DNA from: Roseovarius mucosus DSM 17069
GTDB taxonomy: Bacteria; Pseudomonadota; Alphaproteobacteria; Rhodobacterales; Rhodobacteraceae
Reading direction: 5' to 3'
NCBI RefSeq assembly: GCF_000768555.3
Contig: NZ_KN293991.1
Coordinates: 62,001 to 126,000 of the forward strand
DNA length: 64,000 bases
Numbering within the stretch: position 1 is the stretch's first letter; every line of letters begins with the position of its first letter. Position numbers and translations under genes: made by a program. The notes beneath the pieces were generated by a model. That model did not search any database. It saw only the letters and a program-made list of their open reading frames with translations, and was not told where the DNA came from. Shown here one piece after another: positions 2,805 to 15,573 of the stretch.

Positions 2805-3483
2805 AGGCCGCCCGCACCGCAGAGGCCCGGAGCGCCATCACAACCGCGTTCACGAGCACCGCAAGAACCAGCAAGACCACGCCTAGGGCCAGCGCCAGCT
2901 CCAGGTTCCCTTTGGACGTCTCGAGGGCAATGGTCGTGGTCATCACGCGGGTCACATGATTGATATTGCCGCCCACGATCAGCACCGCGCCTACCTCGGC
3001 CACGGCGCGGCCAAACCCCGCCAGCGCCACGGTCATCAGGCTATAGCGCGCATCCCAGAGCAGGGCCGCAATACGCTCTTGAGGACGCAGGCCCATAGAG
3101 GCGAACTGCTCGGCATATTCGCCGTGCAAATCCTCGACCACCTGCTTCGTGAGCGCCGCCACGATCGGTGTTACAAGTATCGTCTGTGCGATGATCATCG
3201 CCGCAGGGGTATAGAGCAACTGAAGGGGCCCAAAAGGGCCGGAGGCGGACAGCATGAGGTAGACAAACAGCCCAACCACCACCGGCGGCAATCCCATCAA
3301 GGCATTAAGGATAACCGTCATCACCCCGCGCCCCGGAAAACGGAACGCACCCACCATGGCCCCCAAGGGCAGGCCAATCAGGCAGGACAAAAGCACTGCG
3401 GAAAGCGTTACATAGAGAGACAGTCCGACAATCTCGCTCAGGTTCCGATCCCAATTGAGGATCAGGACAAAGGCCTCTGACAT
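2797..3483 (-). CDS. tupB: Tungstate ABC transporter, permease
   Basis: An integral inner-membrane permease of about 228 residues. It contains several hydrophobic helices (for example LSLYVTLSAVLLSCLIGLPL and the C-terminal LELALALGVVLLVLAVLV) and the EAA-loop region around EYAEQFASMGLRPQERI that contacts the ATPase. I chose ATG 3483 (MSEAFVLIL) because the 19 residues before it are basic, Cys/Ser-rich and unlike the family N-terminus. It begins the minus-strand tup operon and overlaps tupC by 8 bp. Confidence 0.88.
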   Translation of the reverse strand: MSEAFVLILNWDRNLSEIVGLSLYVTLSAVLLSCLIGLPLGAMVGAFRFPGRGVMTVILNALMGLPPVVVGLFVYLMLSASGPFGPLQLLYTPAAMIIAQTILVTPIVAALTKQVVEDLHGEYAEQFASMGLRPQERIAALLWDARYSLMTVALAGFGRAVAEVGAVLIVGGNINHVTRVMTTTIALETSKGNLELALALGVVLLVLAVLVNAVVMALRASAVRAAYA

Positions 3484-3577
3484 GATGTCGCCAAAGCTGA
3501 ACACGTGCGATTTCTCCCCTCGACAGGAAAAAAAACACAAAAATACATGGAAAGCCAGCCCTGAACGCGACAGCGGC

Positions 3578-4267
3578 TCAGAGTTTTGCGGCCCGCAAAC
3601 GCCAAAGGCGGAGCGGTTGGCTCAACTCTGGGCCGTTTGGCCCAACGGTGATATGCGCCGCATAGAGCCGCGCCAGCGTCTCGCGCTGCGCTTCGGCCAA
3701 TACGCGACGCGTGGGATCGACGCGGGCCAGATACTCGACGAAGGCGTCCAAATCGGCCACCGGCGTGGGACGATGATACGTGACCGGCGCAGGTCCAGTC
3801 GCCGCGCCCGCTGCCAGAACGGCATCAATCGCCCGAATCGCCGCGTGACGCATCTCGGTCTCATCCTCGACCGGGCGCATGACCTCGAAGAAAGCACCCT
3901 CTGCCAAGGGCTCTACAATGACGACTTCTCCGCCGGGGCGCAGAACACGCAACGCCTCAAGCAGGGCGCCCCGCATCAGTGGCAAGGGCACATGATGCAG
4001 CGCGTTCAGGAAAATACAGGCGTCAAAGGATTCTGCGGCAAAGGGCAATTGCTCTGCCCCGCCAACCTCGAAACGGGCCTCGGGCACAGCCAGACGTGCG
4101 GCATCCACGGCCTCGGATGCCGGATCAATGCCGGATACGTCATAACCCGCCTGCACCAGATTGCGCGCAAGCGCTCCATGACCACACCCGATGTCGAGCA
4201 CCCTATGCGCCCCGATCTCGGAGAGGATCGCGCGTATCCGCGCAGGCGTATCCTGAGGCTCAGCCAT
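3578..4267 (-). CDS. Class I SAM-dependent methyltransferase
   Basis: A 229-residue methyltransferase of the UbiE/MenG-like (Methyltransf_11) type. The SAM-binding motif I is VLDIGCGHGALARNL, followed by the acidic loop GIDPASEAVDAAR and motif III VLRPGGEVVIVEP. ATG 4267 (MAEPQDTPARI) is chosen because it overlaps the upstream CoA-transferase stop by 8 bp, the normal coupled arrangement; a start at 4345 would overlap much further. Co-transcription suggests a shared pathway, but the methyl acceptor cannot be read from sequence. Confidence 0.82.
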   Translation of the reverse strand: MAEPQDTPARIRAILSEIGAHRVLDIGCGHGALARNLVQAGYDVSGIDPASEAVDAARLAVPEARFEVGGAEQLPFAAESFDACIFLNALHHVPLPLMRGALLEALRVLRPGGEVVIVEPLAEGAFFEVMRPVEDETEMRHAAIRAIDAVLAAGAATGPAPVTYHRPTPVADLDAFVEYLARVDPTRRVLAEAQRETLARLYAAHITVGPNGPELSQPLRLWRLRAAKL

Positions 4268-5387
4268 CGCCAAACTCTGCACGCAGTGCATCGCTTTGCG
4301 CGCCCAGACCAGGCACGGCCCCCAATTCCGCCTCAACTCCGTCAATCTGCGCGCCAGGGGCCAGCATCCGAACCGGGCCTGTGGGGGTCTCGACCGTCAC
4401 ATACCGGTTCTGCGGATGGCCCACCAGATCCTCCATTTCGCTCACGCGGCCATAGGCAATGCGCGCGGCGCGCAGCCGGTCCGCCATGGCATCGCGGGAA
4501 ATCGCGGCAAAGACTGGGCGCAGAATCGCATCGAGGGCCTCGCGATTGGCAACGCGGTTCGAATTGCTGTCGAAGCGCGGATCGCGGGCGAGCGTCGCAT
4601 CGCCCAGGATTGTGTCGCAGAACGTGGCCCATTCGCGCTCGTTCTGGATCGAGATCAAAACCGCCTTGCCATCGCTGCCCTGATAGACGCCATAGGGGGC
4701 GATCGTGGGGTGATTGAGACCGGCGCGCGGTGGCACCTTGCCGCCGTAAGCATATTGCAGATAGGGCACATTCATCCAGTCGCTCAGCGCATGGAACAGT
4801 GACACCGCGATGTGCCTGCCCTCGCCCGTTGTCGCACGCCCGACCAAGGCCTCCAGAATGGCCTGATAAGCGGTCATTCCCGCAGCGATGTCGCATACTG
4901 AAACCCCGGTACGCGCCGGGCCATGCTCATTTCCAGTAATCGACGAGAGACCGGTTTCGGCCTGCACCAAGAGATCGTAGGCCTTGAGATCCGCCAGCGG
5001 CCCCTCTTCGCCATAGCCCGAAATCGAGACCGTGATCAGACGCGGGTAATCGGCACGCAAGCGGGCGGGCGCAAATCCCAGCCGATCAATCGCCCCCGGC
5101 GCGAGATTCTGGATGAACACATCGGCCTTGCTGAGCATCCGCTCCATCAACGCGCGGTCCGCCTCTTGCCGCAGGTCGAGGCAGAGCGATTCCTTGCCTC
5201 GGTTGAGCCAGACGAAATAGGCGCTTTCGCCATGAACCAAGGCGTCATAACCCCGCGCGAAATCGCCTTCGGGTCGCTCGACCTTGATCACCCGCGCACC
5301 GGCCTCTGCCAGACGGCCTGACGCATAGGGCGCGGCGACCGCCTGTTCGACGGAAACAACCAATAATCCGGCAAGGTCAGTGCGCAT
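4260..5387 (-). CDS. CaiB/BaiF (class III) CoA-transferase family protein
   Basis: A 375-residue family III CoA-transferase, which moves CoA between acyl-CoA and carboxylic acid through an aspartyl-CoA anhydride. Typical family segments are VKVERPEGDFARGYD, FVWLNRGKESLCLDLR, ADVFIQNLAPGAIDRLGF and SGYGEEGPLADLKAYDLLVQAETGL, where the Asp of KAYDLL is the expected nucleophile. ATG 5387 is preceded by AGGAGA. It is divergent from the LysR gene, so it is probably LysR-controlled together with the acyl-CoA dehydrogenase and hydratase genes. Donor and acceptor are unknown; C4/C5 dicarboxylates are common for such clusters. Confidence 0.88.
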   Translation of the reverse strand: MRTDLAGLLVVSVEQAVAAPYASGRLAEAGARVIKVERPEGDFARGYDALVHGESAYFVWLNRGKESLCLDLRQEADRALMERMLSKADVFIQNLAPGAIDRLGFAPARLRADYPRLITVSISGYGEEGPLADLKAYDLLVQAETGLSSITGNEHGPARTGVSVCDIAAGMTAYQAILEALVGRATTGEGRHIAVSLFHALSDWMNVPYLQYAYGGKVPPRAGLNHPTIAPYGVYQGSDGKAVLISIQNEREWATFCDTILGDATLARDPRFDSNSNRVANREALDAILRPVFAAISRDAMADRLRAARIAYGRVSEMEDLVGHPQNRYVTVETPTGPVRMLAPGAQIDGVEAELGAVPGLGAQSDALRAEFGDG

Positions 5388-5425
5388 CGCGGTCTCTTCT
5401 CCTTTGGGGGCAGTCTGGCCGGACC

Positions 5426-5500
5426 ATGCATTATTGCATCGGCTGTGGGAAATACCCGTCTTTTTGAACGGGTATAAGGCCCGACTATGGGCAACCATAG
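5426..5500. promoter_or_regulatory. Divergent LysR-type control region with three inverted repeats
   Basis: Between the divergent CoA-transferase and LysR genes are ATGCA-TTAT-TGCAT (5426-5439), ATACCCGT-N8-ACGGGTAT (5452-5475) and CTATGG-GCAA-CCATAG (5485-5500). The middle one is a perfect 8-bp inverted repeat and also fits the T-N11-A pattern of LysR sites. LysR regulators normally bind upstream of their divergent target, so these are good operator candidates. Which arm is the recognition site and which the activation site cannot be decided. Confidence 0.6.
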
Positions 5501-5540
5501 CCTTGCGTTCTAGCATTCGGCTTTGATAGGCTTTTTGCCT

Positions 5541-6476
5541 ATGGATATTCGCCAACTCCGCTACTTCATTGCCATCGCCGAAGCCCCCTCGCTCTCGGCG
5601 GCGGCGCATCGGCTGGGTGTGGCGCAACCCTCGCTCTCGCAGCATGTCGCACGGATGGAAACTGAGCTTGGCGTGCGCCTGATCGACCGCTCGCCGCGCG
5701 GCTCGATGCTGACCGCCGAAGGACAGGTTCTCTTGCGCCACGCGCGCGAGATCAGCGCCGCGATGTCACGCTGCGTGGACGAAATGCGCGATGCTTCGGG
5801 CGCACCGCGCGGCAAGGTTGGTTTCGGTTTGCCGCCCTCGGTGTCGATGGTGCTGTCCGTGCCCCTGGCCGAAACCGTGCGGGTGGAGCTACCCGATATT
5901 CGCCTGCGCGTGGTCGAGGCCATGAGCGGCTATATCAAGGCATGGGTCAGTGATGGCACCGTTGACATGGGCCTGATCTATGACCTTCAGGACGCGGATC
6001 ATTTCCGGATCACGCATGTTCTGGATGAGCGTCTGCATGTCTATTCCGCCCCGGACAACTGGCCCTTCGGCACGCCCCCCGGCACCCCCGTGCCGCTCCT
6101 TGCACTGGAACCGCTTGACATGATCCTGCCTCAGGCCGCCCACGGCCTGCGCAAGACGATCGAGAGCTATGCCGCCCCGCTTGGCCTGCACCTCAACGTG
6201 CCCGTTGAGATGGACGCGATGACACAAATCAAGGAACTCGTGGCGCGCGGCTCGGGTCATGCGATCTTTTCCCCCTCGGCGGTGCATGACGCGGTCGCAC
6301 GGGGCGAACTTGTCGGAGCACCGATCACGGCCCCTGACATGGTGCGGCCCGTCTATCTTGTCTCGAATCCCGCCTTTCCAACCAGCCGCGCCAGCCGCGC
6401 GGTCGAGGCGATCACACTCGACGTGCTGCGCGATCTGGTGCGGCGAGGCATCTGGCAAGGTGAGCTGCGGCTATAG
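5541..6476 (+). CDS. LysR family transcriptional regulator
   Basis: A 311-residue LysR-type regulator. The N-terminal winged HTH is MDIRQLRYFIAIAEAPSLSA followed by AAHRLGVAQPSLSQHVARME; the remaining ~220 residues are the two-lobed inducer-binding domain (GKVGFGLPPSVSMVL onward). ATG 5541 is preferred to 5523 because the family starts at MDIRQL. It is divergent from the CoA-transferase and precedes the acyl-CoA dehydrogenase by about 90 bp. It resembles Nac/CbbR-like regulators of small organic acid catabolism. The inducer is probably a pathway acid or CoA ester, by inference. Confidence 0.88.
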   Translation: MDIRQLRYFIAIAEAPSLSAAAHRLGVAQPSLSQHVARMETELGVRLIDRSPRGSMLTAEGQVLLRHAREISAAMSRCVDEMRDASGAPRGKVGFGLPPSVSMVLSVPLAETVRVELPDIRLRVVEAMSGYIKAWVSDGTVDMGLIYDLQDADHFRITHVLDERLHVYSAPDNWPFGTPPGTPVPLLALEPLDMILPQAAHGLRKTIESYAAPLGLHLNVPVEMDAMTQIKELVARGSGHAIFSPSAVHDAVARGELVGAPITAPDMVRPVYLVSNPAFPTSRASRAVEAITLDVLRDLVRRGIWQGELRL

Positions 6477-8583: not shown

Positions 8584-8611
8584 TTGACATAACTAGAAAA
8601 TTAGTTATATT
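8584..8611 (+). promoter_or_regulatory. sigma70-like promoter with ArsR operator palindrome
   Basis: A -35 TTGACA (8584-8589) and a -10 TATATT (8606-8611) are 16 bp apart. Between and over them lies a perfect inverted repeat, ATAACTA (8589-8595), 6-nt spacer, TAGTTAT (8602-8608), the typical form of an ArsR/SmtB operator. Binding there would block RNA polymerase. The predicted transcription start falls at about 8617-8618, i.e. on the ArsR start codon, and no Shine-Dalgarno is present, suggesting a leaderless mRNA. Confidence 0.7.
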
Positions 8612-8617
8612 AGATCC

Positions 8618-8935
8618 ATGAGCACGACAAGCCCCACCGCCCGCGCCCTTGCCGCTCTTGGCCATGACACGCGCCTTGCAGTCTTTCGACTGTTGGTGCG
8701 CGCGGGCGAAGAAGGGCTGAACGTGGGCGAGATTGGGCAGCATCTGGATCAGGCGCCCTCGACCCTCGCGCATCACCTGTCGGCCTTGGTCGACTCTGGT
8801 TTGGTGATGCAAGAGCGGCAGGGGCGTACGGTGATCAATCGCGTGGACTATGCTGCCATGAGGCGAACACTGAGTTTCCTGACATCGGAATGCTGCACCG
8901 GGGTAAAACTGACCAAGACTGAAAACGCTGCCTGA
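8618..8935 (+). CDS. ArsR family metalloregulator
   Basis: A 105-residue winged-helix repressor: LAALGHDTRLAVFRLLVRAGEEGL, recognition region QAPSTLAHHLSALVDSGLV, then wing VMQERQGRTVINRV. A Cys pair near the C-terminus (SECCTGVKL) could bind As(III), Sb(III) or another thiophilic metal; the classical alpha3N CxC site is absent. The operator lies inside its own promoter and an ArsP-like permease follows 40 bp downstream, so autorepression released by metal is likely. The exact inducer is unknown. Confidence 0.88.
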   Translation: MSTTSPTARALAALGHDTRLAVFRLLVRAGEEGLNVGEIGQHLDQAPSTLAHHLSALVDSGLVMQERQGRTVINRVDYAAMRRTLSFLTSECCTGVKLTKTENAA

Positions 8936-8975: not shown

Positions 8976-10031
8976 ATGGACATGACAGACTCGAGCCAGC
9001 CTCACCCCCGCGCTGCCGTATTGCTACGGCTCATTTGGAAAGACCATCGCATCTGGATCATCTCGGCATTGATCCTGATCCTGCTTGCGATTTTCGACAC
9101 GACACAGGCGCGCGCCACGCTCGCCTTTACGGCCGAGGCGCTACTCGGCACCGCGCCGTTTCTCTTGCTCTCCATCGGCATCGCCGCCTGGGCCACTGCA
9201 ACCGGTGCGGATAATCTGATCGCCCGCGCCTTTACCGGCGCGCCCGCCGTGATGATCCTTCTTGCGGCCTTGGCGGGGGGCCTTTCGCCCTTTTGCTCGT
9301 GTGGGGTTATTCCGCTGATCGCCGCCTTGTTGGCAATGGGCGTACCACTCTCGGCGGTCATGGCCTTCTGGCTTGCATCGCCGGTGATGGACCCGTCGAT
9401 GTTCGTGCTGACCACCGGCGTTCTGGGGTTGGAGTTTGCCATTGCCAAAACACTCGCCGCAATCGGCCTGGGGCTTATGGGGGGATGGGTCGTGCATCTG
9501 TTGGGTCGCGCCGGGGGGCTGAGTGATCCGCTGCGCGATGGAATCGGCAACGGAGGTTGTGGCGGCAGCAAACTGCGCGCACCCAAACCTGTCGTCTGGC
9601 GCTTTTGGACCGATCCGGCGCGCAGGGCCAAGTTTGGCCGTGAAGCGCTGAATGTGACCCTGTTTCTGCTGAAATGGCTCACTCTGGCCTTTATACTCGA
9701 GAGCCTCATGCTCGCCTTTATCCCGGCGGAGACCATCACGCAGGCGCTTGGGGGCACCGGCATTATCCCGATCCTGTTGGGCACTCTGATCGGCGTGCCT
9801 GCCTATCTGAATGGTTACGCCGCCCTCCCGCTGGTCGGTGGGTTGATTGGTCAGGGCATGGCCCCCGGTGCCGGTCTGGCCTTTCTCGTGGCCGGTGGCG
9901 TCACGTCCTTGCCTGCGGCCATCGCCGTCTGGGCCTTGGTCAAACCACGGGTTTTCGCGCTCTACATCGCCCTGTCGCTCACCGGGGCGTTTGCGGCGGG
10001 GCTGATCTTTCAACTCTGGAACATGGCATGA
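8976..10031 (+). CDS. ArsP-type (UPF0718/DUF318) permease
   Basis: A 351-residue polytopic inner-membrane protein with two homologous halves. The family motif FCSCGVIPLIAALLAMGVPL is present in the first half (about residue 105) and GTLIGVPAYLNGYAALPLVG in the second. A cytoplasmic loop carries GNGGCGGS. Characterised relatives (ArsP) export trivalent organoarsenicals, and others are linked to metal tolerance. Control by the ArsR gene immediately upstream fits metal or metalloid efflux. It overlaps the next gene by 4 bp (ATGA), showing translational coupling. Confidence 0.82.
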   Translation: MDMTDSSQPHPRAAVLLRLIWKDHRIWIISALILILLAIFDTTQARATLAFTAEALLGTAPFLLLSIGIAAWATATGADNLIARAFTGAPAVMILLAALAGGLSPFCSCGVIPLIAALLAMGVPLSAVMAFWLASPVMDPSMFVLTTGVLGLEFAIAKTLAAIGLGLMGGWVVHLLGRAGGLSDPLRDGIGNGGCGGSKLRAPKPVVWRFWTDPARRAKFGREALNVTLFLLKWLTLAFILESLMLAFIPAETITQALGGTGIIPILLGTLIGVPAYLNGYAALPLVGGLIGQGMAPGAGLAFLVAGGVTSLPAAIAVWALVKPRVFALYIALSLTGAFAAGLIFQLWNMA

Positions 10032-10861
10032 GACAGTTGCAGATCGAAGTGAGCGGCCTTGAGCCCGGCGCGCGCCTGCTGGCCCCGGCCGGCATGTGCA
10101 GCCCCGAAGACGCCGTTTCGGCCACAACCGTGACTGGCGGAGACATCGTTACCGTAGCGCTCGAGCCTGAATTGGGTCTTACCGCGCTCTGGATCGAGGC
10201 GGCGAACGAAACTGTCACACTCACCCATACCATCACCCCCGCGCCCAAAGACCAAGGCTATCCCGAGGCGGTTTATACTTCGCGCATCAACCGCTATACC
10301 GTCGCTGCCGATGATCTGACCGAGGCCAGCCGCACCATTGCGGCCAAGGCAGGCGGCGGGCGCGCGGGCATCGACGCATTGGTCGCCGAGGCTGAGGCGC
10401 GTTTCACCTACGATCATCCTGAGGCGCGGTTCAATGATGGGGCCGAAGCAGTGCCCTACCTCTCATGCGGCACAACGCCCGGCTCTTGCGTGGATATCAA
10501 CACCTATCTCGTCGCCAGCCTGCGCGCGGCAGGCTATGAGGCGGGCTATGTCTATGGCTACTTCTTTCCGGCGGAAAAGGGGGGCGTCACCCATGACATG
10601 CATTGCTGGGTTGTCACCCGCCATGACGGCGAGGTGCTCGACTGGGACATCGCGCATCACATGAAGGCGGGGCTTGGCCCGACAAAACCCGGTCTCAATC
10701 CGCGTCCGGGTTGGCGGGTCGCACTCGGGCATTCGATGGGGCATACCTATCGTATGGGTGAGACACTGGCCCAACTAAAGCTTCTGGCCGAACCGATGAA
10801 AAGGGGGCCGGGCGGCACATGGCAGAAACTGCCCATCATTGCGCGGCTGCCCGCGACCTGA
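10028..10861 (+). CDS. Transglutaminase-like cysteine hydrolase family protein
   Basis: A 277-residue protein with no signal peptide. The catalytic triad of the transglutaminase-like fold is visible: Cys in TPGSCVDINTYLVASLRAAG, His in GVTHDMHCWVV, Asp in EVLDWDIAHH. Such proteins are usually proteases, amidases or peptide-processing enzymes rather than true transglutaminases. The ATG overlaps the permease stop by 4 bp, so I chose it over longer in-frame extensions that would run inside the permease gene. Its coupling to an ArsR-controlled permease is unexpected and its substrate is unknown. Confidence 0.75.
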   Translation: MRQLQIEVSGLEPGARLLAPAGMCSPEDAVSATTVTGGDIVTVALEPELGLTALWIEAANETVTLTHTITPAPKDQGYPEAVYTSRINRYTVAADDLTEASRTIAAKAGGGRAGIDALVAEAEARFTYDHPEARFNDGAEAVPYLSCGTTPGSCVDINTYLVASLRAAGYEAGYVYGYFFPAEKGGVTHDMHCWVVTRHDGEVLDWDIAHHMKAGLGPTKPGLNPRPGWRVALGHSMGHTYRMGETLAQLKLLAEPMKRGPGGTWQKLPIIARLPAT

Positions 10862-10967: not shown

Positions 10968-10989
10968 TTTTACCAATTGGTAAAACCAA
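10968..10989. promoter_or_regulatory. Overlapping palindromes upstream of BMP transporter, GntR/FadR-type operator
   Basis: TTTTACCAATTGGTAAAA (10968-10985) is a perfect 18-bp palindrome. It overlaps TTGGT-AAA-ACCAA (10977-10989), a perfect half-site arrangement of the FadR subfamily of GntR regulators (TGGT-N3-ACCA). A degenerate copy, CCAATGGTAAATTT, lies at 10931-10944. The sites are 33-54 bp ahead of the transporter start. No GntR gene is in the window, so the regulator must be elsewhere. Confidence 0.65.
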
Positions 10990-11021
10990 AAAGACTGCCC
11001 ACTGACAACATGGAGAGCAAC

Positions 11022-12038
11022 ATGACACGCCTGCCACTTTCCCGACGTCGCTTTATGGCCACCACGGCCGGCGCCGCGCTCATCGCCGGGGCCTCTGGCC
11101 TGCGCTCGCCGCTGCGCGCCGCCGAACCGATCAAGACCGCCGGTATCTACACGGTGCCCGTCGAACAACAATGGGTCAGCCGGATTCACAAAGCCGCCAT
11201 GACCGCGCAAGAGCGGGGCGATGTCGAGTATGTCTATTCCGAGAATGTCTCGAATACCGATTATGCGCGCGTCATGCGCGAATATGCCGAACAGGGCTAC
11301 AAGCTCATCATCGGTGAGGTGTTCGCAGTCGAGCAAGAAGCGCGCGAAGTGGCCGCCGACTATCCCGACATCGCCTTCCTGATGGGGTCGAGCTTCAAGG
11401 AGGACCCGGCGCTGGCGAATTTCGCGGTGTTCGACAACTATATTCAGGACGCCTCTTACCTCTCGGGAATCATTGCAGGTGCGATGACCAAGACCGCCAA
11501 TATCGGCATGGTCGGCGGCTTCCCGATCCCCGAGGTCAACCGCCTGATGCACGCCTTCATGGCAGGTGCCCGTGAAATGAACCCCGAGATCAAGTTTCAA
11601 GTGAGCTTTATCGGGTCTTGGTTCGATCCCCCCAAGGCCAAGGAAACCGCCTTTGCCATGATCGAGGGGGGCGCGGACATGCTCTATGCCGAACGCTTTG
11701 GCGTCTCGGACGCGGCAAAGGAAAAGGGGGTGCTGGCCATCGGCAACGTGATCGACACCCAAGCCGACTATCCCGAAACGGTCGTGGCCTCGGCCATCTG
11801 GCATTTCGAGCCGACGCTTGATGCCGCGATTGCCGCTGTTAACGCGGGCACGTTCACCGCTGCCGATTACGGCGTCTATTCCTTCATGAAGGCAGGCGGA
11901 TGCTCTTTGGCGCCGCTTGGGACCTTTGAGGGCAAAGTGCCCGAGGCAGCCTTGGCGCTGGTGGCAGAACGCGAGGCGGCGATCAAGGCGGGCACCTTTA
12001 CCGTCGAGATCAACGACGAAGAGCCGAAATCCTCGTAA
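11022..12038 (+). CDS. BMP (basic membrane protein/PnrA-like) family ABC transporter substrate-binding protein
   Basis: A 338-residue periplasmic binding protein with a Tat-type signal, LSRRRFMATTAGAALIAGAS. Family members (PnrA, Med, BmpA) bind purine or pyrimidine nucleosides. ADMLYAERFGVSDAAKEKGVLAIG and the SGIIAGAMTKTANIGMVGGF region match the family. ATG 11022 has GGAG 6 nt upstream; the ATG at 11010 lies over that site. It is the first gene of a five-gene operon with an ATPase, two permeases and a deaminase-like enzyme, so a nucleobase or nucleoside ligand is likely. Confidence 0.86.
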   Translation: MTRLPLSRRRFMATTAGAALIAGASGLRSPLRAAEPIKTAGIYTVPVEQQWVSRIHKAAMTAQERGDVEYVYSENVSNTDYARVMREYAEQGYKLIIGEVFAVEQEAREVAADYPDIAFLMGSSFKEDPALANFAVFDNYIQDASYLSGIIAGAMTKTANIGMVGGFPIPEVNRLMHAFMAGAREMNPEIKFQVSFIGSWFDPPKAKETAFAMIEGGADMLYAERFGVSDAAKEKGVLAIGNVIDTQADYPETVVASAIWHFEPTLDAAIAAVNAGTFTAADYGVYSFMKAGGCSLAPLGTFEGKVPEAALALVAEREAAIKAGTFTVEINDEEPKSS

Positions 12039-13586
12039 ATGACAGGCGCAGACACGGCGCAGGTCGTTCTGCGCCTTGACAGGATTACCAAGCGTTTCGG
12101 CGCGCTCACCGCGAATGACGCGGTGAGCCTCAGCCTGCACCGGGGCGAGGTCGTGGCCCTCTTGGGTGAAAACGGTGCGGGCAAGACCACGCTGATGAAC
12201 ATCCTGTTCGGCCAGTATACTGCCGATGAGGGACAGGTGATGGTGATGGGGCGGGCGCTGCCCCCCGGCAATCCGCGCGCCGCACTCGAGGCGGGCGTAG
12301 GCATGGTGCATCAGCATTTCACGCTGGCCGACAATCTGACTGTGCTGGAGAACGTGACACTCGGCACCGAGCCGCTCTGGCGTTGGCGGTCTGATCGTGC
12401 CGCCGCGCGCGACAAGATTGCCAAACTCTCTGCCGATTTTCATCTGGCGGTTGACCCTGACGCGCGTGTCGGCAGCCTCACCGTGGGGGAACGGCAGCGG
12501 GTCGAGATCCTAAAGGCGCTCTACCGCGAAGCGCGTATTCTCATTCTCGATGAGCCGACCGCCGTTCTGACTCCACAAGAAACCGACGATCTCTTTGCCA
12601 CGCTGCGCGAGGCGGTGGCCAAAGGCCTCTCGATCGTGTTCATCAGCCACAAGCTGCATGAGGTGATGGATATTGCCCACAGGGTCGTGATCCTGCGCCA
12701 TGGCAAGGTGGTGGCCGAGATGGACACCGCCAATACAGACCGTCACGCGCTAGCCGCTGCTATGGTCGGCAGTGACGTCAGCGCACCACGGGTGGCCCCC
12801 GGCACGGCTGGCGCGCCACTCTTGCAATTGCACGCCGTCACCACGGCAGACCGGGGCAGCGCGCCGGGGTTGAAATCCCTGAACCTCGCCCTGCGCGCTG
12901 GCCAGATCACCGGCCTTGCCGGAGTTTCCGGTAACGGGCAAGCGGCGCTGGCCGATCTTATCGCCGGTCTTGGCGCGCCCGCTTCAGGGCGGCTTGATCT
13001 GGGCGGCGCGGAAATGGCGCAATGGAGCCCGCGCGCTGCGGTCGAGCATGGGATTGCGCGCATCCCCGAAGACAGGCACAAAACCGGCACAATCGCCGAT
13101 TTCTCCCTCACCGAGAATGCCATTCTGGAGAGCTATCACAAACCCCCGATGAGTCGCGCGGGTTGGATGAGCTGGCCCCGCGCCGAGGCCGAAACACAGG
13201 CGATCATCAAAGGCTACGACATTCGCTGCCCAGGGCCAGATACACGCATCCGCCTGCTCTCGGGCGGCAATATGCAGAAACTGATCCTTGGCCGCGTGCT
13301 CGAGGCCAATCCGCGTATCATCCTCGCCAACCAGCCCGTACGCGGACTGGACATCGGTGCCGTCAACTATGTGCATGAACAGTTGCTCAAGGCCCGCGAC
13401 CGGGGCGCGGCGGTGCTGCTGATTTCCGAGGATCTGGACGAGATCATGGCGCTCTCGGACGTGATCCATGTGATGTCCGAAGGTCGCCTCTCGCCCGAGT
13501 TTGCGCGCGGCACGATGACCCCTGCCGAACTGGGCGTTTGGATGGCGGGTCATGGGTTTGATGCGGGGTTGGCACATGCGTCTTGA
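12039..13586 (+). CDS. Nucleoside-type ABC transporter, tandem ATP-binding protein
   Basis: A 515-residue protein with two ABC domains in tandem. The first has Walker A GENGAGKTTLMNILFG, signature LTVGERQRVEILKAL and Walker B ILILDEPTAVLTPQE. The second has a degenerate Walker A (GVSGNGQAALADLIAG, no Lys) and signature LLSGGNMQKLILGRVLEA, the normal asymmetry of YufO/RbsA-like proteins. The start codon follows the binding-protein stop directly and its end overlaps the next permease by 11 bp. It powers import of the BMP ligand. Confidence 0.88.
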   Translation: MTGADTAQVVLRLDRITKRFGALTANDAVSLSLHRGEVVALLGENGAGKTTLMNILFGQYTADEGQVMVMGRALPPGNPRAALEAGVGMVHQHFTLADNLTVLENVTLGTEPLWRWRSDRAAARDKIAKLSADFHLAVDPDARVGSLTVGERQRVEILKALYREARILILDEPTAVLTPQETDDLFATLREAVAKGLSIVFISHKLHEVMDIAHRVVILRHGKVVAEMDTANTDRHALAAAMVGSDVSAPRVAPGTAGAPLLQLHAVTTADRGSAPGLKSLNLALRAGQITGLAGVSGNGQAALADLIAGLGAPASGRLDLGGAEMAQWSPRAAVEHGIARIPEDRHKTGTIADFSLTENAILESYHKPPMSRAGWMSWPRAEAETQAIIKGYDIRCPGPDTRIRLLSGGNMQKLILGRVLEANPRIILANQPVRGLDIGAVNYVHEQLLKARDRGAAVLLISEDLDEIMALSDVIHVMSEGRLSPEFARGTMTPAELGVWMAGHGFDAGLAHAS

Positions 13587-14625
13587 ACCCATCGCCAACC
13601 CGAGCCTCGCGCGCAGCACCCTGCCGCCCGTTCTGGCGATTGCCGCAACGGTGATCGTGGCCTCGCTCTTGGCGATGCTGGCGGGGGCCGATCCCTTTGC
13701 CGTATTGGGATTGATCCTCAAAGGCGCGGCAGGATCAAAATTCGCCGTGTTAGAGACACTCAATCGCGCCACGCCGCTCATTTTCACCGGGCTTGCCGTG
13801 GCGGTGGCATTCCGTGCCCGGCTCTGGAACATCGGCGCGGAGGCGCAGCTTTATGCAGGGGCACTGATGACGGTGGTTCTTGGGACTGGCGCGTTGCCAT
13901 GGTCTGCCACGGCGCTCTTGCCAACGCTGGTCCTCGTGTCGATGTTGGCGGGCGCGGCTGTTCTGCTCGTCCCCGCGCTGCTCAAGGTGCGGTTCGGCGT
14001 TGATGAGGTGGTCACGACGCTCCTCTTCAATTTCATCTTTCTCCTCTTCATCTCACTCCTGCTTGAAGGACCGCTCAAAGACCCGATGGGCATGGGGTGG
14101 CCCAAATCCGAACGCCTGATCGCCGAGGCACGCCTGCCGCGTATCGTCGAGGGTCTGCGCCTGCATTGGGGCTTTGCGCTGGCTCTCATCTCGGCCGCGC
14201 TCGTTTGGGTGATCCAGCGACGAACAACCCTGGGCTATGAAATGCGCGCCGTTGGCCTCAATCGTGAGGCAGCGCGCTTTGCGGGTATCCCGGTCAACGC
14301 GGTGCTGATCAAGACGGCGCTTCTGTCGGGTGGCCTTGCGGCGCTCGCCGGTTTCTCGGAGGTGGCAGGCGTCAAGGGCAGCCTCACGCTCGATCTCAGC
14401 CCCGGCTTTGGCTATACCGGGATCATTGTGGCGATGCTGGCGCTGCTCAATCCGCTCGGTGTCATCGCTGCCGCCCTCTTCGTGGCGGGTATCTTCGTGG
14501 GTGCCGACAGCATGAGCCGCGCCGTGGGCGTGCCGACCTATCTGGCCGATATCATGCTGGCGACAGCCCTCTTGCTCATGGTGCTGGCGATTTTGCTCAC
14601 GCGGTTCCGGGTGGTGAGGGAATAG
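13576..14625 (+). CDS. Nucleoside-type ABC transporter permease 1
   Basis: A 349-residue multi-pass permease of the BPD_transp_2 (LivHM/RbsC-like) family, of the YufP type found in BMP transporters. RARLWNIGAEAQLYAGAL and GLNREAARFAGIPVNAVLIK are diagnostic. ATG 13576 (MRLEPIANPSL) is selected over an upstream start inside the ATPase gene; it still overlaps that gene by 11 bp. It pairs with the following shorter permease as a heterodimer. Confidence 0.86.
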   Translation: MRLEPIANPSLARSTLPPVLAIAATVIVASLLAMLAGADPFAVLGLILKGAAGSKFAVLETLNRATPLIFTGLAVAVAFRARLWNIGAEAQLYAGALMTVVLGTGALPWSATALLPTLVLVSMLAGAAVLLVPALLKVRFGVDEVVTTLLFNFIFLLFISLLLEGPLKDPMGMGWPKSERLIAEARLPRIVEGLRLHWGFALALISAALVWVIQRRTTLGYEMRAVGLNREAARFAGIPVNAVLIKTALLSGGLAALAGFSEVAGVKGSLTLDLSPGFGYTGIIVAMLALLNPLGVIAAALFVAGIFVGADSMSRAVGVPTYLADIMLATALLLMVLAILLTRFRVVRE

Positions 14626-14628
14626 CGC

Positions 14629-15573
14629 ATGGACATACTTGATATCCTCCTCTCCGCCAGTTTCTGGGCCGCCGCGATCCGCATTGCGAGCCCGCTGATC
14701 TTTGCCACCTTGGGCGAGCTGATCTGCGAGCGCGCGGGCGTGCTCAATCTTGGCATCGAGGGGATCATGGTCGCAGGTGCCTTTGCCGGATGGATGGCAG
14801 TCTATTCCGGTCTGGGTCTCTGGCCGGGTGTTGCGGTGGCGATGGTCGTCGGCATGGGCTTTGGCGCGGTGCATAGCCTCTTGACCGTGCCTTTCGGCCT
14901 CTCGCAGCATGTGGTGGGGCTTGGCGTCACGCTACTTGCTACCTCCTCGACCTATTACGCCTATCGCCTCGCTCTGCCAGAGGTGACAAGCCCGCCGAAA
15001 ATCACGGCCTTTCAGCCATGGGAGATCCCGCTGCTGTCCGACATTCCGCTGATCGGCCCAGCGTTCTTTTCACAAACCCCGCTGACCTATCTGGCCTTCC
15101 TCCTTGTGGGCGTGGTCAGCCTCGTGCTCTATCGCACGCCGCTTGGCCTTGCGCTGCGCGCGGCGGGCGAGAATCCGGCGGCGGTGGCAGCACAGGGCCT
15201 GTCTGTCACGGGGCTGCGCATGGGCGCGGTCATCGTCGGATCGGGGCTGATGGCCATGGGGGGCGCATTTCTGACCATGTCGGCCTTTGACTCCTTTTTC
15301 TTCGAGATGGTCAACGGGCGCGGCTGGATCTGCATCGCGCTGGTGGTGTTTGGCGCTTGGAAACCGGGCAAGGCGCTGTTGGGCGCGGTGCTCTTTGCTG
15401 CCTTCGACGCGCTGCAAATCCGGGTTCAGCAAACACCGCTTGGCGCAGACATTCCCTATCAAATCTTCCTGATGACGCCCTATGTCCTCTCGATCCTCGC
15501 GCTCATCGTCATGTCGCGACGTGCCGAGGTGCCCGCCGCCCTGATGGTAGCCTTCAACAAGGGAGAACGCTGA
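14629..15573 (+). CDS. Nucleoside-type ABC transporter permease 2
   Basis: A 314-residue YufQ-like permease, the partner of the preceding one. The N-terminal FATLGELICERAGVLNLGIEG and AAGENPAAVAAQGLSVTGLR are family hallmarks, with about eight hydrophobic helices. It starts 3 bp after permease 1 and its TGA shares a base with the ATG of the deaminase gene (TGATG), so the operon is tightly coupled. Confidence 0.87.
   Translation: MDILDILLSASFWAAAIRIASPLIFATLGELICERAGVLNLGIEGIMVAGAFAGWMAVYSGLGLWPGVAVAMVVGMGFGAVHSLLTVPFGLSQHVVGLGVTLLATSSTYYAYRLALPEVTSPPKITAFQPWEIPLLSDIPLIGPAFFSQTPLTYLAFLLVGVVSLVLYRTPLGLALRAAGENPAAVAAQGLSVTGLRMGAVIVGSGLMAMGGAFLTMSAFDSFFFEMVNGRGWICIALVVFGAWKPGKALLGAVLFAAFDALQIRVQQTPLGADIPYQIFLMTPYVLSILALIVMSRRAEVPAALMVAFNKGER

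Follow-up and report, generated by a model that had tools for sequence, protein, structure and literature searches.

An ArsR-ArsP cassette of Roseovarius mucosus with a transglutaminase-fold enzyme that also occurs in phosphonate operons

The stretch of Roseovarius mucosus DSM 17069 analysed here (64,000 nucleotides (nt); the window) carries three consecutive genes, for an ArsR regulator, an ArsP-type permease and a transglutaminase-fold cysteine enzyme (TG). Exporters of the ArsP kind, which expel trivalent organoarsenicals, are widespread. The three-gene cassette is almost certainly a real unit that many marine bacteria carry, and relatives of TG were found both beside ArsP and in phosphonate (phn) operons, which points to an unrecognised step common to the handling of organic arsenic and organic phosphorus. 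Our best reading, held with somewhat less than even confidence, is that arsR-arsP-TG would be an ArsR-controlled unit against organoarsenicals, most likely trivalent, in which TG would act on a small conjugate.

Gene organization of the cassette

All three genes lie on the plus strand. The arsR gene (8618-8935) encodes an ArsR/SmtB regulator of 105 amino acids, the ArsP_1 (PF03773) gene (8976-10031) a permease of 351 amino acids with C107-S-C109 and a loop cysteine, C195 (assigned by Pfam, residues numbered by hand), and the TG gene (10028-10861) a protein of 277 amino acids with C154-H192-D207 (assigned by Pfam, alignment and an AlphaFold2 model). The ATGA at 10028-10031 is common to the permease stop and the TG start, and the coupling of the two genes claimed in the first-pass annotation was borne out by the coordinates of the open reading frames (ORFs) and by the Pfam matches. 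The ORF list holds a longer ORF of 395 amino acids (9674-10861) in the TG frame; TG homologues align from the ATG at 10028, not from the start of the longer ORF. A sigma-70-like promoter match (TTGACA-16 nt-TATATT, 8584-8611, plus strand), which is a consensus match only at 11 of 12 positions, contains the palindrome ATAACTAgaaaatTAGTTAT (8589-8608). The gene order, the promoter-like site with its palindrome and the shared ATGA together indicate that arsR, permease and TG are probably one ArsR-controlled unit. Two terminator-like matches were found, both inside coding sequence, where 2.5 were expected by chance.

Recurrence in other genera

One genome per species (84,980 species) was searched with a five-member TG alignment, yielding 118 relatives; the counts below are for the best 80 of the 118 loci. 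These comprised 47 linked to ArsP, 8 in phn operons, 12 in a LysR/ATP-synthase locus, 11 in assorted places, and the two loci L107 and L123. In the 47 ArsP-linked loci the permease lies directly upstream of TG on the same strand; 46 of them came from the profile search, and in the 47th (L073) the contig begins inside the permease. ArsR was present 5' of the permease in 45 of the 47, the other two being L073, cut by its contig, and L125, in which none was found. The permease was of the window type in 20 loci (Roseovarius, Marivita, Loktanella, Rubrimonas, Rhodosalinus and others) and of a second type in 27 (Roseibium/Labrenzia, Oricola, Ahrensia, Bauldia and others). Permease and TG overlapped by 4 base pairs (bp) in 18 of the 20 window-type pairs and in none of the 27 second-type pairs, whose gaps ranged from -1 to 51 bp (n = 27). 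A script picked TG start codons close to where the window protein predicts them, and the overlap counts lean on this choice; L084, for example, was scored with a 20-bp gap, and an earlier GTG (as in L017, the same locus) would give a 4-bp overlap. The cassette is beyond chance, as its order and overlap recur in other genera. The pair is thus conserved across genomes, and a pair unique to this strain, which would have refuted the first-pass annotation, was ruled out.

The distribution of TG is rare overall and patchy. In the genus of the window it was found in 15 of 84 genomes, 13 with all three genes and two cut by contig ends; in the family sample in 15 of 149 genomes, four of them with TG beside ArsR-ArsP; and in the class sample in 2 of 385 genomes at E 1e-25, one being the window's own. 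No match was found when the window TG and the L079 TG were searched against plasmids, a search that may omit near records. The arrangement also varied. L029 has the order ArsR-TG-ArsP, with ArsR and TG overlapping by ATGA. In L107 (Roseibium aestuarii, 4569-5819) the usual loss is reversed: the permease is absent and ArsR directly precedes TG. The permease of L094 (Bauldia litoralis, 3981-4929) matches in two frames and looks frameshifted, with the TG frame open, and the TG frame at G283:C8:39182-40015 (L141) was reported with an in-frame TGA. In G383, which has the same genus code as G283, the permease is followed by a second ArsR-like gene and has no adjoining TG. An ORF after TG in L024, named cytidine-deaminase-like from its translation, was taken as a coincidence.

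TG in phosphonate operons and other settings

Eight of the 80 TG genes are housed in phn operons. In L079 (uncultured Roseicyclus) the order is phnJ, TG, a histidine-phosphatase-like gene and phnK, with TG overlapping phnJ by ATGA; PhnG, PhnK and PhnM of this locus scored over NCBIfam cut-offs, and PhnI and PhnJ over Pfam cut-offs. TG lies directly 3' of a phnE frame in L116, L126, L130, L131, L137 and L138; in L114 the two are separated by a phosphatase-like gene. A phnC, phnD, phnM or phn_thr-fam gene was found near TG in the phnE-linked loci. Scored representatives from L130, L126, L114, L116 and L138 passed phn models, and across the scored representatives these were phnG, phnI, phnJ, phnK, phnM, phnC, phnD, phnE and phn_thr-fam; PhnM of L126 passed NF011988, not TIGR02318. 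For L131 and L137, the phn gene names come from similarity alone.

The histidine-phosphatase-like gene follows TG in L079 (5001-6427) and precedes it in L114 (4345-5852); both proteins scored below all NCBIfam cut-offs, with alpha-ribazole phosphatase as best match, and the gene may be a second uncharted phn accessory. In L133 (Aliishimia ponticola, 3155-5768) TG starts 4 bp after xsc, whose product scores over the cut-off for sulfoacetaldehyde acetyltransferase; this single case may represent a third setting, that of sulfonates.

The careful TG tree (57 rows, unrooted) was made after dropping 26 of 83 rows with long branches or near copies; L123, cut by a contig end, was left out of the TG trees. 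L118 (Rhodosalinus sediminis), an ArsR-ArsP-TG locus, fell inside the phn group, with starred branches of 100/96, 98/91, 96/81 and 100/97, and its neighbour L139 has neither partner. Conversely, the phn-linked L079 fell inside the ArsP group (branches 100/100, 100/97, 100/96 and 98/82), and its neighbours L072 and L077 lack both partners. This mutual nesting indicates that TG changed between ArsP and phn settings more than once, with either direction of switch possible. The presence of the same enzyme family in phn operons argues against a purely arsenic-specific or glutathione-specific TG substrate. The first-pass annotation, in which neither the phn setting nor the frequent lack of TG beside ArsR-ArsP appears, had conjectured that TG may process a peptide or thiol conjugate of the metalloid.

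An optional third gene

A permease match was found in 96 of 149 family genomes and in 50 of 385 class genomes. Among the best 30 permease loci of the family search, ArsR was present in 29 (the remaining one is cut) and TG in three; among the best 30 of the class search, ArsR was present in 30 and TG in two. TG as a part of every ArsR-ArsP unit was therefore ruled out, the pair being commonly without it. In a quick permease tree of 112 rows, thinned from 123 at 97% identity, the TG label changed 16 times, nine of the changes being forced by starred branches; the stars of quick trees are less trusted when long rows are present, as in this tree. The tree omits seven repeat loci as well as permease matches shorter than about 250 residues; the window permease is also absent from it, presumably because of the thinning. 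The 16 changes argue that TG joined or left the ArsR-ArsP pair many times.

TG might be a general cytosolic amidase or peptidase that hitch-hikes in compact operons 3' of transporter genes and has no bearing on arsenic, which we consider somewhat unlikely. Its several unrelated settings (ArsP, phn, LysR/EamA and singletons) would fit such a passenger, as would the single TG copy in each genome that has one (15 of 15 in the family, 15 of 15 in the genus). So would L191, where TG is gone and the flanks remain as in the window (MaoC-like, ArsR, permease and BMP-type genes); the bases 3' of its permease stop resemble the start of TG, judged by eye. However, TG is the only gene that overlaps the permease stop by 4 bp among the 30 permease loci (in two of them; in the third TG locus it starts 94 bp on), and the nearest non-TG ORF, a universal-stress-like one in L042, has its first ATG 2 bp past the stop. 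The other ORFs 3' of the permease, read from translations in the 30 loci, vary from locus to locus and include major facilitator superfamily, metal-ATPase-like, universal-stress-like and cytochrome-P450-like ORFs. The trees, on which TG appears to have joined the pair repeatedly, also speak against a passenger. A weak signal in the same direction is that an ArsP permease was present in 10 of 11 genomes with TG elsewhere, versus 82 of 134 genomes without TG (one-sided p 0.04).

In the window, genes for a BMP-type protein and an ATP-binding cassette transporter (10977-15573, named from translations) lie directly 3' of TG. They were rejected as members of the unit, since they follow TG only in L060-L064 among the 80 loci; close relatives of the locus retain them, and BMP-type genes were present in 7 of 29 genus loci, one of which is L191, a locus without TG. 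A permease match at E 1e-60 was found in 64 genus genomes; only two of these (G607 and G580) carry two, and the remaining ones have either a window-type permease or one that is about 50-58% identical.

Regulator, operator and likely inducer

The window ArsR scored 63.6 bits against NF033788 (cut-off 55), placing it in that subfamily. All 46 cassette ArsRs have two adjacent cysteines close to the C terminus; 28 of them, like the window ArsR (C92-C93), have no other cysteine. In the excerpted text of PMC11868830, AfArsR binds As(III) through Cys95, Cys96 and Cys102, and SpArsR of Shewanella putrefaciens 200, without the third cysteine, answers to MAs(III) and not to As(III). The window ArsR has the SpArsR-type arrangement as outlined in those excerpts, with the C-terminal pair and without the third AfArsR cysteine.

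Inverted-repeat scores upstream of arsR had a mean of 6.7, versus 3.7 in shuffled sequences (47 rows). An operator-like motif, written after inspecting the sequences upstream of arsR, was found in 25 of the 47 TG loci linked to ArsP and in none of 32 others, and has only one site in the 64-kilobase (kb) window. The palindrome is thus a putative ArsR operator common to the cassettes.

Arsenic is the likeliest inducer, because the ArsR carries SpArsR-type cysteines and a plasmid arsenic island houses a permease 75% identical to the window's; a trivalent organoarsenical is the probable inducer. Arsenic as the cue for the ArsR-controlled operon described in the first-pass annotation gains support from the same two observations, the cysteine site and the island. 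The genome has a separate ACR3 elsewhere.

The permease and its substrate

The permease belongs to PF03773 ArsP_1 (127.4 bits, cut-off 32.3, residues 47-346). Its cysteine pair, C107-S-C109, was present in 123 of 123 aligned permeases and the loop cysteine, C195, in 119 of 123. A phmmer search with the permease gave no match among PDB sequences at E up to 1. According to excerpts of PMC6205960, ArsP of Campylobacter jejuni is an exporter of trivalent organoarsenicals that does not expel inorganic arsenite.

Plasmid pORIO3 of Cereibacter azotoformans carries a permease 75.5% identical to that of the window, together with an ArsR of its own, at a distance of about 15 kb from arsA, acr3 and arsC and directly beside pst-phoU-phoB. 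A molybdoenzyme operon near it is one that we take to be arx-like. A window-type ArsR-permease pair was also found beside pst-pho in Pseudosulfitobacter, and the pairs next to pst-phoU-phoB lie at NZ_CP089969.1 46909-58293 and NZ_CP022417.1 179430-187102. On pORIO3, a thioredoxin/rhodanese/CcdA group has a different ArsR-permease pair on either side.

Export by the permease of a different soft metal or thiol compound (copper or zinc as with SO_0444, or the SaoE substrate), with TG serving in that pathway, is distinctly unlikely. The best NCBIfam matches of the permease are CuZnOut_SO0444 (NF033936) and SaoE (NF040736), and some relatives adjoin a heavy-metal ATPase-like or zinc-binding-like ORF, read from translations. 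However, the scores of 81.3 and 77.4 bits are far below the respective curated cut-offs of 300 and 325 bits, and the permease was rejected as an orthologue of either. The relative in the arsenic island and the cysteine site of the window ArsR, which resembles that of SpArsR as excerpted in PMC11868830, likewise favour an arsenical.

Fold and catalytic residues of TG

TG scored 37.3 bits against PF01841 Transglut_core (cut-off 23), the only Pfam family reported for it at E up to 1, and has Cys, His and Asp in the order of the transglutaminase-like superfamily. Residues C154, H192 and D207 were invariant in 67 of 67 aligned TG proteins, so the intact triad described in the first-pass annotation stands; C147 and C193 were invariant as well. 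The AlphaFold2 model (mean predicted local distance difference test score 96.2) has a beta-rich N-terminal part followed by the transglutaminase core. Its nearest solved structure was 3ISR (Z 14.1, 236 residues, 12% identity), followed by 3KD4 (Z 9.8) and by human transglutaminase 3 and TgpA (both Z 8.6); arylamine N-acetyltransferases and amide synthases appeared at Z 6-7, a level counted as common. Neither phmmer with TG nor a profile search with the TG alignment gave a match among PDB sequences at E up to 1, and against NCBIfam there was one match, at E 0.11 and far below its cut-off. Judging from the model and the triad, TG is likely a thioester-forming cysteine enzyme, whether hydrolase or transferase. 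We tentatively assign it as a cysteine amidase or acyltransferase that would act on a conjugate of the compound handled by the linked transporter or pathway.

It is improbable that TG instead works like phytochelatin synthase or a glutathione hydrolase, trimming glutathione or another thiol off an arsenical-thiol conjugate for ArsP to expel the free arsenical. The papain-like Cys-His-Asp fold and the dithiol site in ArsR would suit such a reaction. The TGs in carbon-phosphorus (C-P) lyase operons would be left unexplained by it, and PF01841 is the sole Pfam family reported for TG at E up to 1. The 50 structure matches listed name neither enzyme, which in itself rules out neither. An arsenical-binding chaperone, in which C147, C154 and C193 would hold the arsenical and hand it over to ArsP much as ArsD hands arsenic to ArsA, is very improbable: the three cysteines are all invariant, but so are H192 and D207, as catalysis would require, and the 67 rows include phn- and EamA-linked TGs.

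Proposed role and points against it

In the role that we favour, in which the unit serves against organoarsenicals, the compound would bind C92-C93 of ArsR and the palindrome would be freed. ArsP and TG would be made together by coupled translation, with TG in the cytosol; no export signal is evident in TG by eye. With C154-H192-D207, TG would cleave or transfer an acyl or amide bond of a small organoarsenical conjugate, and ArsP would then be given a form that it can expel from the cell. In phn operons, the target of the same chemistry would be a phosphonate in acylated or peptidic form, ahead of C-P lyase. Given the phosphonate setting, a bond that occurs in both arsenicals and phosphonates is likelier than a glutathione adduct. 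TG would be an accessory, many ArsR-ArsP pairs managing without it.

Several observations weigh against this role. TG was absent beside 27 of 30 family and 28 of 30 class permease loci; being missing beside most ArsR-ArsP pairs, it is not needed for efflux as such. Within the genus, 13 of 22 window-type permeases have TG and nine do not (L207, whose permease is cut by a contig end, was left out of this count). A single clade of twelve TG copies occupies a LysR/ATP-synthase locus, and 11 of these copies immediately follow an EamA gene, whose identity was checked in L122 only; the twelfth row under the EamA label is L135, in the same locus and outside the EamA cluster of 11 loci. Another 11 TG genes, including that of L133, are in assorted places, and the LysR/EamA and assorted members may have an unrelated role. 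Further cysteines occur in 18 of the 46 cassette ArsRs; in some of these, mainly from Roseibium, a third cysteine stands six residues further on, as in AfArsR, and such regulators may sense As(III). A weaker promoter-like match within the permease (9669-9697, 9 of 12 positions, with about 0.9 expected by chance) might allow TG to be transcribed also apart from arsR. Four of five plasmid window-type permeases had no named arsenic gene within 6 kb, and some related permeases adjoin copper- or zinc-type ORFs, read from translations. Finally, no ArsM over the cut-off was found in the window's own genome (best 64.7 bits versus 263), so an organoarsenical would have to come from outside.

We consider it unlikely that one TG family performs the same step on carbon-arsenic and carbon-phosphorus compounds, and perhaps on sulfonates too. 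Such a step could, for example, open a conjugate, amide or peptide, of an amino-organoarsenical or aminophosphonate; TG would then be exchanged by bacteria between an operon for arsenical export and operons for phosphonate catabolism.

Significance and comparison with known systems

No paper was found that treats ArsP, a transglutaminase-like protein and a permease together, in a literature search that was short on subscription journals, nor one in the same literature on transglutaminase, phosphonate and C-P lyase together. The first-pass annotation had placed such a hydrolase outside known arsenic systems; this agrees with the absence of a published ars operon with one among the matches listed, in which the word transglutaminase occurs once, in one very long review (PMC12857756). 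Other organoarsenical proteins named beside ArsP in the excerpts of PMC6205960 are ArsM, ArsH and ArsI. The ArsR-ArsP unit is known; the enzyme in it is unrecognised so far.

If ArsR controls a conserved cysteine enzyme beside ArsP, organoarsenical resistance would gain a new enzymatic step, and an exchange of TG with C-P lyase operons would connect the use of phosphonates with resistance to arsenicals. One enzyme in two operons offers a concrete handle in culturable marine bacteria. If the common step is real, acylated or peptidic organoarsenicals would be present in the sea, so far unnoticed.

Among known systems, the C-P lyase (phn) operons of Rhodobacterales are home to the eight phn-linked TG relatives, which stand among phn genes verified for the representatives scored. 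The window TG differs from them in its location, outside any phn operon, with phnJ on another contig of the genome. In structure, 3ISR from Cytophaga hutchinsonii and the TgpA periplasmic domain share with TG an N-terminal beta domain and a transglutaminase core; the entry 3ISR, at only about 12% identity, is named putative cysteine protease only, and TgpA is a periplasmic domain, unlike TG, which would be cytosolic. SpArsR, compared by description only and from excerpts of its source, has the C-terminal cysteine pair without a third cysteine that is also seen in the window ArsR. Another close parallel is the ArsP operon, as with arsP of C. jejuni in the excerpted account, to which the window permease, below both NCBIfam equivalogs tried, is likened by family only. 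A PF03773 permease and an ArsR-type regulator are likewise present in the window unit, and the arsenic-island setting is matched by one relative of the window permease. The window unit differs from these operons in its third gene, for a transglutaminase-fold enzyme.

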